Shown one piece after another: positions 57,359 through 61,688 of a stretch of 64,000 bases of DNA. Source of the DNA: Akkermansiaceae bacterium (GTDB lineage Bacteria > Verrucomicrobiota > Verrucomicrobiia > Verrucomicrobiales > Akkermansiaceae); the NCBI GenBank assembly GCA_028822935.1, contig JAPKCM010000001.1, forward strand, positions 1-64,000, in the 5' to 3' direction. The notes under the pieces were generated by a model, which saw only the letters and a program-made list of their open reading frames with translations, was not told where the DNA came from and made no database searches. The translations under genes were made by a program, and so were the position numbers. Position 1 is the first letter of the stretch, and each line of letters begins with the position of its first letter.

Positions 57359-59575
57359 TCACTTTGAGGCTTTGGCCGCTTCTTCGAGTGCCTTCAGGGC
57401 TTCCTCGGGACCAAAAACTTCGGGCATGACGATAACAGGGGCATCGGGATCAGCCGGGGCGATCACGTTGACGGGAAGAGCAACGCGGCCGTAACGAGGG
57501 AAATCGTCACTGATCGTTTGAAGGCGTTTTGTATTATCGGCTTTGATAAGAAGAACGTTGAGTTCTTTTAGCTTGGCGAGGACTTCTTTGTTTGAGAACA
57601 CACGGCTCTCATTCACTTTACAAGTCGCTCACCAATCGGCGGTGTAATCTAGCCAAATGATACGCCCTTTCGGTCGAGAAACCTCCATGATGCCAGGATA
57701 CCATTCGTGCCAGGCGAGGCCCTGTTTTGGTGGCTTTGCGGTGGAGTAAGCCCAAGCGAGGCCTCCGAAGGTCATGAGGCCGGCAAGGCCGTATCCCGTG
57801 ACGAGACGTTTGGTTTTCGCCATCGTTGGCGTGCCGTAACGGCCGTAAAGGTAGACTCCCAATCCGATCAGGCAGAGGGCGAAGAGGAAGATATTGAAGT
57901 GATCTTCTCCCACGATTTTGAGGTAGCCTTTCATGAAGAAGACGACGGTTGCGAAGACGAAGAAGGCCATGACCTGTTTGAACGTTTCCATCCAAGCGCC
58001 AGGACGAGGGAGCTTCTTAATGAGAGCAGGGAAGAGAGAGAGAATGACGTAAGGGGAGGCGATCCCGATACCGAAGACCGTGAAGACGGCAAACTGAATG
58101 CCTCGGTTTTCCTGTGAAAGCGCGAAGGCCATGACGGCTCCGAGGAAGGGGCCGGAGCAAGGTGTGGCAACCAAGGTGGTAAGCACTCCTGAGAAAAAGG
58201 AGCCGGAGTAACCTTTCTTCGACTGGAGTTCTCCTCCCACACTGGTCATTTTAGAGCCAAATTCGAAGAGGCCGAAGAGATTCAGACCCATGAGAAAGAA
58301 GACGACGATCATCGTTCCAAGGAAAACTGGTTCCGAGAGTTGCTCTCCCCAATTGAGCTTTAGTGAAATGATGACGGCTGCGAGAATCCACATCGTGATG
58401 AGGAGACCCAGACCGAAGACCATGCCGTGAATTTTGATCTTCTTTTCGTCCTCACCGGCTTGGGCGACGAAGCCCATGATCTTGAGTCCGAGGACCGGGA
58501 AGACACAGGGCATGAGGTTCAAGATGAGTCCGCCGAGAAAGACGAGCCAAAGAGAAGAAAGGAAAGTGACTTCCTTTTCTTTACTTCCACCAGGGTCGAT
58601 TACTTCCGGGAGAACATTAACGTCGTATACTTCGAGTCCGGCTTTACGGTCAGCTGCCGTTGCAGGAACAAAAGCTGAGAGTGCTTCGCCTGTGGTGTCA
58701 CCTCCGCTTGTGGCGCCGCTGGTCAGCGGGGCACTAATCTCGACGCTCGACGATCCGAAGCCATCGCTGAAAGTAAAGAGGCCTTTGATTGACTCGCCTA
58801 CTTCACCGGCGTCAATTGCGAGCTCTTTTGTGCCCTGGTTTCGCTGGAGAGTCATCACGTAGTGTCCTTCTTTGTTGAGCACTCCTTCCTCTTGGGGCGC
58901 CTGCGAATCGATTTGTTGATCGGTGGAGAAGAAGTAGACGGGCTCCCCGAGCTCGATTCCTTCTGGGAAGATGATCTCAAGGGATATTTTTCCCTCCTTT
59001 TCAGTGGCGAGAGCGCCCCATGCCGAGCCGTCTTGCGGGAGCGCGGTGTTAGCAACTTCAAAAAATTCCTCGTTGGCCTCGATGGGGAGGGATTCTTCGC
59101 CGGCGGTAACCTTAAAGGAGAAGTCGTGGCTGCCCATAAGGCAGGACTTGTCATCACATTCCTGCCAGTCGAAGCTTCCCTTGATCTCGTATTCCGAACC
59201 GACCTTGAGGTTTTCGGAAGCCTCTATTTCTACAATGAAGGTTGCTTCGCCGTCATATCCATAAAGGGTGGCATCAACCCCTCCGACCGTTGTTCTGATC
59301 GCGGCGGGTTGCGGAAAGAGGAGTTTGCCTGCTGTCAACCCATCAGGAAGTTCCCATGTCACCGAGGGAGGGGAGCCGATCACTCCGGCGTTCTTGAAGT
59401 AGCTGTGAAAATGTTCGGCGTGGTTGAGGGTGAAGGCGACCTTGAATAAATCTCCTGGCTCCACCGCGGAGTATTCCGGCGTGACCTTGGCGGTCGTTTC
59501 TTTTTCTCCGAGGGAGAATTGTCCGAGGACGGTTTGAGTAAAGAGGATGAAGAAGAAAAATAGAGCTCGGTGCAT
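57359..59575 (-). CDS. dsbD: DsbD-type thiol:disulfide reductase with in-frame TGA, candidate selenoprotein
   Basis: Inner-membrane protein that passes reducing power from cytoplasmic thioredoxin to the periplasm. Order: signal peptide (ALFFFFILFTQTVLG), N-terminal alpha-like domain with the redox pair C140/C145 (DWQECDDKSCLMG), then eight-helix core with C357 (NLMPCVFPVLGLK) and C473 (VATPCSGPFLGA), then a C-terminal thioredoxin domain. At codon 649 (57631-57629) TGA replaces the first Cys of the thioredoxin motif: ...DYTADW-TGA-ATCKVNESRVF. The frame stays open after it for 89 codons with clear thioredoxin character (LKELNVLLIKADNTKR, ALPVNVIAP, IVMPEVFGPEEAL) and stops at 57359. Total 738 residues if TGA is read. 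I annotate it as a single gene; a nonsense mutation or base error would instead truncate it at W648. No Sec-machinery gene is in the window. Confidence 0.8.
57593..57611 (-). promoter_or_regulatory. Candidate bacterial SECIS hairpin in dsbD
   Basis: On the minus strand, TGAGA (57611-57607) pairs with TCTCA (57597-57593) around the 9-nt loop GCCGTGTGT; a G-T wobble could extend the stem to 6 bp with loop CCGTGTG. The stem begins 17 nt after the TGA and the loop begins about 22 nt after it. Known bacterial SECIS elements lie in this distance range and need a small loop with a G near its 5' side. The stem is short and AT-rich, so the evidence is supportive only. Confidence 0.5.
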
Positions 59576-60323: not shown

Positions 60324-61688
60324 GTGACGCTCACTGAATTGAAAGAAGTCCTCGCTGAAATCGGGGTGACGCCCTCGCGCAAGTTGGGGCAAAACTTCCT
60401 CGTCGATCAAAATACGGCGGAGGGGATTGTCAATCTTCTCGACCCGCAGCCGGGTGATACTGTCGTGGAGGTGGGACCGGGAACGGGCGCGCTCACGGAG
60501 CATCTCATTGGGAAAGTGGGTCGTATTATCTTAGTCGAATATGATCGGAGGCTTGCGGAATACTTGATTAGGCGCTTTGCCGATCATCCCGAAGTGACGG
60601 TCATTTGTGAGGACGCGGTGCGCATTGATGTGCGCCCCTTCTTTGCTTATAAAAATATCAAACTGCTGGGAAATCTTCCCTACTCGGCCGGCGGGGCTAT
60701 TTTGCGGAACTTTCTCAAGGGCCCGTCACCTTTTACGAAAGCGATTCTGATGCTCCAGAAGGAGATGATCGACCGCATCCTGGCAGGCCCCAAGTGCAAG
60801 GACTACGGCGTGCTCACCCTCCGGATGCAGTGCGAGTGGGAGGGAGCCCGGGTAAAAGTTGTCCCACCAAGCTGCTTCTTCCCCAAACCGCTGATCGATT
60901 CCACCGTGATGAGCCTCGAGCCGAGACAAGCCAAGCTTCCGGTGCACGATCGTAAGCTTTTCGACGAGCTCGTCCGCCGTGGTTTTTCCCAGCGCAGGAA
61001 GCAGCTCCGCAAAAATCTCCCCGATGGGATCGACTGGGAGACCGCCAGCTCGGAACTCAGCCTCAGCCCCACCGCACGGGCCGAGGAACTCAGTCTCGCT
61101 GATTGGGTCGCACTCACTCGTCTTGCCGATCCCTTTTTTAAAAAGGAAGAAGGGCAGGGTGCGGGTGAGATACTTGATGTGGTCGATGAAAACGACGAAG
61201 TGATCCGCTCTGAGCGCCGCGATGTTATCCACCGCGATGACCTCACGCATCGGGCGGTCCACATCTTTGCGCTCAATAAGCACCGTGAACTCTTCCTGCA
61301 AAAGCGCTCCCGCCTTAAAGATAAATGCCCCGGCCTCTGGGATTCGAGCGCGGCGGGTCATGTCGATTCTGGCGAGGATTACGCCGCGTGCGCCACGCGC
61401 GAACTTGCCGAGGAACTCGGCCTCGAAGATCATGACCTTAAAGAAGTGGGCAAGCTTGGTGCCCACGCCAACACCGGTTGGGAGCACGTCCGAGTCTACG
61501 CCACCCTTGCCCAAGAAAAAGTCCGTTTCCCCTGCGTCGAGATCGAATATGGTGAGTGGTTCACGATGGAGCAAATCGAGGCCTGGGTGAATGGGGTCTC
61601 GGAAGACTTCGCACCCGGATTCCTGGCGTGCTGGAAATTGTGGAAAGAGGAGAATCCAGCGAGATTTGAGACGGGTATCGCGGACTGA
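60324..61688 (+). CDS. rsmA: RsmA (KsgA) rRNA dimethyltransferase fused to a Nudix hydrolase
   Basis: 454 residues, GTG start preceded by AAAGGAG 5 bp upstream. Residues 1 to about 270 are a complete RsmA: GQNFLVDQN, EVGPGTGALTEHL (SAM loop, 49-61), NLPYSAGGAI (117-126, NxPF/Y motif) and the C-terminal FSQRRKQLRKNL. RsmA dimethylates two adenines in helix 45 of 16S rRNA. Residues 281-454 are a Nudix hydrolase: ILDVVDENDEVIRSERRDVI, FLQKRSRLKDKCPGLWDSSA, and the Nudix box G345-x5-E351-x7-REL-x-EE-x-G366 (GHVDSGEDYAACATRELAEE). The two halves are in one frame with a short linker (FFKKEEGQGAGE). IDI-like or nucleotide-diphosphate activity cannot be told. Confidence 0.93.
   Translation: MTLTELKEVLAEIGVTPSRKLGQNFLVDQNTAEGIVNLLDPQPGDTVVEVGPGTGALTEHLIGKVGRIILVEYDRRLAEYLIRRFADHPEVTVICEDAVRIDVRPFFAYKNIKLLGNLPYSAGGAILRNFLKGPSPFTKAILMLQKEMIDRILAGPKCKDYGVLTLRMQCEWEGARVKVVPPSCFFPKPLIDSTVMSLEPRQAKLPVHDRKLFDELVRRGFSQRRKQLRKNLPDGIDWETASSELSLSPTARAEELSLADWVALTRLADPFFKKEEGQGAGEILDVVDENDEVIRSERRDVIHRDDLTHRAVHIFALNKHRELFLQKRSRLKDKCPGLWDSSAAGHVDSGEDYAACATRELAEELGLEDHDLKEVGKLGAHANTGWEHVRVYATLAQEKVRFPCVEIEYGEWFTMEQIEAWVNGVSEDFAPGFLACWKLWKEENPARFETGIAD

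Follow-up and report, generated by a model that had tools for sequence, protein, structure and literature searches.

The dsbD gene of an Akkermansiaceae bacterium very probably encodes a selenoprotein of the DsbD/ScsB family, in which an in-frame UGA at codon 649 (UGA-649) would be read as selenocysteine (Sec). The gene lies in the window, as the whole 64-kb stretch of DNA analysed here is called, and its features are listed in Table 1. A first-pass annotation of this DNA had proposed that Cys was replaced by Sec at the TGA; this reading is supported by the Sec machinery of the genome, by a homologue column occupied by TGA or TGY, by the conserved part downstream and by a covarying hairpin.

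Table 1. Features of the dsbD locus in the window.
Feature	Position	Strand	Remarks
dsbD gene	57359..59575	minus	739 codons, counting the UGA predicted to be recoded and the terminal TGA
N-terminal periplasmic (alpha) region	58706..59503, limits approximate	minus	contains C140 and C145; resembles DsbD/ScsB N-terminal domains
Transmembrane (beta) domain	57740..58564, limits approximate	minus	contains C357 and C473
Thioredoxin-like gamma domain	57362..57730	minus	contains U649 and C652
In-frame UGA, codon 649	57629..57631	minus	predicted selenocysteine; aligns with E. coli DsbD Cys-461; TGA in 33 genomes
SECIS-like hairpin	57593..57611	minus	UGAGAGC-CGUGU-GUUCUCA; inside coding frame, start 17 nt after UGA

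The reading frame and its domains

Upon translation of the dsbD frame, the TGA at codon 649 was found to be the sole internal stop. It is surrounded by LDYTADW-TGA-ATCKVNESRVFS, with ADW-TGA-ATCK as the core motif, and stands where the first Cys of the thioredoxin motif would be, giving W-U-A-T-C-K if read as Sec. After codon 649, the frame continues for 89 sense codons to a normal TGA terminator, in agreement with the first-pass annotation, which had placed the TGA on the first Cys of this motif with 89 open codons beyond. A profile alignment assigned codon 649 to Cys-461 of E. coli DsbD (motif ADWCVACK). Furthermore, C140, C145, C357, C473 and C652 were invariant in an alignment of 18 sequences; five of the six redox positions are thus always Cys and the sixth is U or Cys. 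The earlier statement that the remaining redox cysteines are intact was borne out.

Pfam analysis of the read-through frame identified DsbD_N (residues 37-152), DsbD_TM (343-549) and Thioredoxin_7 (621-690). One chain therefore combines the alpha domain, the membrane-spanning beta domain and the thioredoxin-like gamma domain with the six redox positions. An AlphaFold model of the full protein was of middling quality (mean pLDDT 74, pTM 0.40); parts of it matched the gamma domain of DsbD (4ip1) and DsbD N-terminal domains, the best match being the N-terminal domain of ScsB (6c29). Judged by these domain and fold matches, the protein is of the DsbD/ScsB type, and by modelled fold ScsB is a closer counterpart of its N-terminal region than classical DsbD is. 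The original identification as DsbD was hence correct for the family, the domain order and the cysteines, but the N-terminal region is closer to the larger ScsB type than to classical DsbD.

The NCBIfam model of the DsbD subfamily (NF001419) yielded 118.1 bits as compared to a curated cut-off of 330, which marks a divergent DsbD-type protein outside that model; NCBIfam 20.0 holds no model for Sec-DsbD. The best NCBIfam match was TsoB (NF045694). Membership in TsoB was rejected: the score of 167.9 bits is far under the cut-off of 805, the frame contains a single UxxC Sec, and Pfam detected no rhodanese domain in it. Paralogues in the genome are restricted to one alpha-only protein and one distant thioredoxin-like protein; neither a second full-length DsbD nor a full-length Cys paralogue was found there. 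Elsewhere in the window (60324-61688, plus strand), a 454-aa frame fuses a KsgA-type rRNA adenine dimethylase with a NUDIX domain.

Sec machinery, conservation and the downstream hairpin

The genome (4.59 Mb, 96% complete) was searched for the Sec machinery, as the first-pass annotation had suggested. It carries selA (485.6 bits, cut-off 267.9), selB (278-295 bits, cut-off 242.25), selD (386.5 bits, cut-off 125) and tRNA-Sec (selC; 53.9 bits, cut-off 47), all above the curated cut-offs; ARAGORN also called a tRNA-SeC(tca). Additionally, selD has an in-frame UGA at its usual Sec site, CGGU, and is probably an internal example, namely a second selenoprotein made by UGA recoding in the Sec-dsbD genome (locus L048). 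Within the family, selB was present in 29 of 31 genomes with Sec-DsbD as compared to 34 of 114 others (Fisher p = 6.7e-11, a value which overstates independence because the genomes are related). The two Sec-DsbD genomes lacking a strong selB match are drafts of 84-88% completeness, and one of them has tRNA-Sec.

Out of 145 family genomes, 31 were found to have TGA at the position of codon 649 in DsbD. Scanning named genomes added two MAGs, L082 of the Verrucomicrobiales and L129 of Mariniblastus (Planctomycetota), giving 33 genomes from different assemblies, mostly of GTDB Akkermansiaceae. Among 107 aligned sites, which were found with a pattern requiring U or C in this column, the codon was TGA in 31, TGC in 56 and TGT in 20. 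In more than one species, the in-frame UGA (33 genomes) thus stands opposite a Cys codon of homologues (TGY, 76 sequences). In the read-through search, the best-matching frames contained no further stops except at their ends. The true terminators of ten relatives were TAA, TAG or TGA; apparently, terminators that are free to change do so, unlike UGA-649. For the codons after the UGA, pS was 0.66-0.86 as compared to a pN of 0.10-0.25, similar to the membrane domain and to the gamma codons before the UGA. Strong purifying selection acts on the codons downstream of UGA-649, and the decay of this part in relatives, which the first-pass annotation had named as contrary evidence, was not seen.

The Trp before the active residue is otherwise near-invariant and kept in 75 of 76 Cys forms; it is replaced by Thr or Asn (ADTU, ADNU) in the Sec forms L034, L041, L044, L045 and L139. 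Searching 388 genomes of the phylum with a strict DNA pattern combining motif and hairpin gave matches in 2, the pattern being narrow and no measure of distribution. A match of a shorter DNA pattern on a viral contig was attributed to chance, as no recognisable DsbD frame was present there.

The hairpin downstream of codon 649 consists of a 7-bp stem and a 5-nt CGUGU apical loop in a register shared among Sec genes. The planctomycete and some others have the variant CGAGAAG-CGUGU-CUUCUCG or close forms, with compensatory changes. Across 25 distinct sequences, pairing holds in 94.9% of cells as compared to 31-70% for slid control structures, and double changes at two stem pairs (U-A to C-G, C-G to G-C) amounted to 12 cells versus 3.2 in shuffles. 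Compared with dinucleotide shuffles, folds of 57 nt had only a slight advantage in stability (mean z -0.63). Because this test is weak and the stem sits in coding sequence, 16 codons were recoded synonymously using the codon usage of each gene. The natural hairpin ranked in the top 5% for 23 of the 31 Sec genes (74%, median p 0.016) but for only 4 of the 76 Cys genes (5%, median 0.43); some Sec genes, e.g. L026, L035 and L082, failed. The sequences used for hairpin, selection and co-occurrence share ancestry, so that these tests do not count as independent. The hairpin found here, just 3' of the UGA, has a small apical loop with a G, which fits published bacterial SECIS elements (PMC1088965). 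Given the covariation and the recoding result, it resembles a bacterial SECIS.

In a phylogeny of 105 DsbD proteins, the 30 Sec forms fell into one clade, which includes the two Cys members L043 and L067. The Sec/Cys state changes three times on this tree as compared to 26 times with shuffled labels, and this distribution fits one gain of Sec and then two reversions to Cys, in L043 and L067. The genome of L043 (G041) contains tRNA-Sec and no strong selB match; L067 comes from the Pirellulaceae and retains, where the SECIS would lie, an inverted repeat rich in A and U that is perhaps a relic. A separate gamma-like domain was observed directly 3' of Sec-dsbD at a matching place in the genus-mates L020 (3575-4180, plus strand) and L022. 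That of L020 has the motif SDWDMTGHVNEKRVFS, with UxxC changed to DxxG, and looks like a redox-dead copy.

Proposed mechanism and alternative readings

In DsbD, electrons pass from thioredoxin to the beta, the gamma and then the alpha domain, and the alpha disulfide is attacked by the first cysteine of gamma. From knowledge of the family we infer Sec insertion itself, the route of the electrons and a faster gamma nucleophile. The ribosome would decode UGA-649 as Sec by means of SelB, tRNA-Sec and the adjacent downstream hairpin. Cytoplasmic thioredoxin would hand electrons to C357/C473 in the membrane, from where they would move to U649-C652 of gamma and on to C140-C145 of alpha, and periplasmic partners would then be reduced. 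U649 would thereby take the place of the residue attacking the alpha-domain disulfide.

In E. coli DsbD, Asp-455 and Glu-468 raise the pKa of the first gamma Cys to 10.6, and no higher value has been reported at this position (PMC3961690). Equivalents of both acids are retained in 31 of 31 Sec forms, the Asp column being partly fixed by the search pattern; of the 76 Cys homologues, only 29 have E in the Glu-468 column. As a selenol at position 649 would ionise far more readily, Sec could make the nucleophile faster and speed up the gamma-to-alpha step, with the acids still restraining it. Since the genome holds no second full-length DsbD, the relay would depend on selenium.

The TGA could instead be a nonsense mutation or an assembly error, leaving a pseudogene or a truncated two-domain protein. 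TGA is indeed an ordinary terminator in this genome; it also ends dsbD itself and, among the 31 long open frames of the window, closes 7. However, the identical codon recurs in all 33 genomes and always faces TGY in homologues, which excludes an assembly or sequencing error and agrees with the earlier judgement that a chance stop was unlikely. Together with the selection beyond the TGA, this makes a defective gene extremely improbable. Read-through of UGA is known to occur in bacteria, and UGA-649 might be decoded by a near-cognate tRNA-Trp or tRNA-Cys or by reassignment of UGA throughout the genome. Such decoding is hardly credible, as UGA serves as a terminator in the same gene and in the window; furthermore, neither the association with selB nor a covarying hairpin would be expected from general read-through.

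Sec insertion at UGA-649, the preferred reading, might additionally include a selenium switch, by which translation at low selenium would stop at the UGA and give a gamma-less alpha-beta form. Insertion of Sec at UGA competes with termination, the stop falls after the beta domain at the gamma active site, and a full-length Cys paralogue is absent from the genome. Nevertheless, the truncated product would end within the gamma fold and would probably be inactive; we regard a switch as unlikely. It is possible, although rather doubtful, that Sec was gained once, within one clade of the PVC group, at the central step of the reducing pathway of the periplasm and kept in the cell's only full-length DsbD; disulfide reduction via the relay would then be selenium-dependent and the UGA a selenium-sensitive on/off point.

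Relation to known selenoproteins and DsbD proteins

Sec-DsbD would place selenium in a transmembrane electron relay and not in a soluble enzyme, and it would allow the effect of Sec to be compared cleanly at a position where the E. coli cysteine has an exceptionally high pKa (10.6). For Akkermansiaceae, a family in which selenoproteins of this kind were not found described, it adds a SECIS-like element that is conserved and covaries. Standard annotation would end these genes at residue 648 and drop the gamma active site.

The domain cd02953 is presumably the DsbD gamma family of CDD. In the GOS survey of 2008, 22 selenoproteins with cd02953 and UxxC are entered as 'Trx-like 2 (Thiol disulfide interchange protein)' (PMC2398784), and a 'Thiol:disulfide interchange protein' with PF13098 and UxxC is also catalogued as a selenoprotein (PMC13188914, PMC1794560). 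Because of these entries, Sec in a DsbD-gamma-type domain counts as already known. A literature search, in which few subscription papers were searchable, found no account of a Sec-containing DsbD or ScsB in full length, of the SECIS of such a protein or of its occurrence in Akkermansiaceae; as far as found, the complete protein, the SECIS and the lineage are apparently undescribed.

Compared by description, the GOS and PF13098 entries share with the protein studied here a thioredoxin domain of the thiol:disulfide interchange type and Sec at the first CxxC position. They are domain-level entries, those of GOS deriving from marine metagenome reads, and the texts consulted describe neither a full alpha-beta-gamma architecture nor SECIS or lineage for them. 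TsoB, a rhodanese/DsbD fusion-like selenoprotein (NF045694) with two Sec in a UxxxxU motif (PMC13188914), has the DsbD-like membrane and thioredoxin part in common with Sec-DsbD, which in contrast has one UxxC Sec and no rhodanese domain. E. coli DsbD (PDB 2fwe, 1vrs, 4ip1) and Proteus ScsB (6c29) share its domain order, cysteines and gamma fold, but their gamma domain has Cys in place of the predicted Sec; the N-terminal region is larger than that of DsbD and best matched by ScsB. Finally, Sec-containing thioredoxins with UxxC are catalogued (PMC13188914) and show the identical substitution in the same fold; these are listed as separate thioredoxins, whereas the thioredoxin domain of Sec-DsbD is fused to a transmembrane relay.
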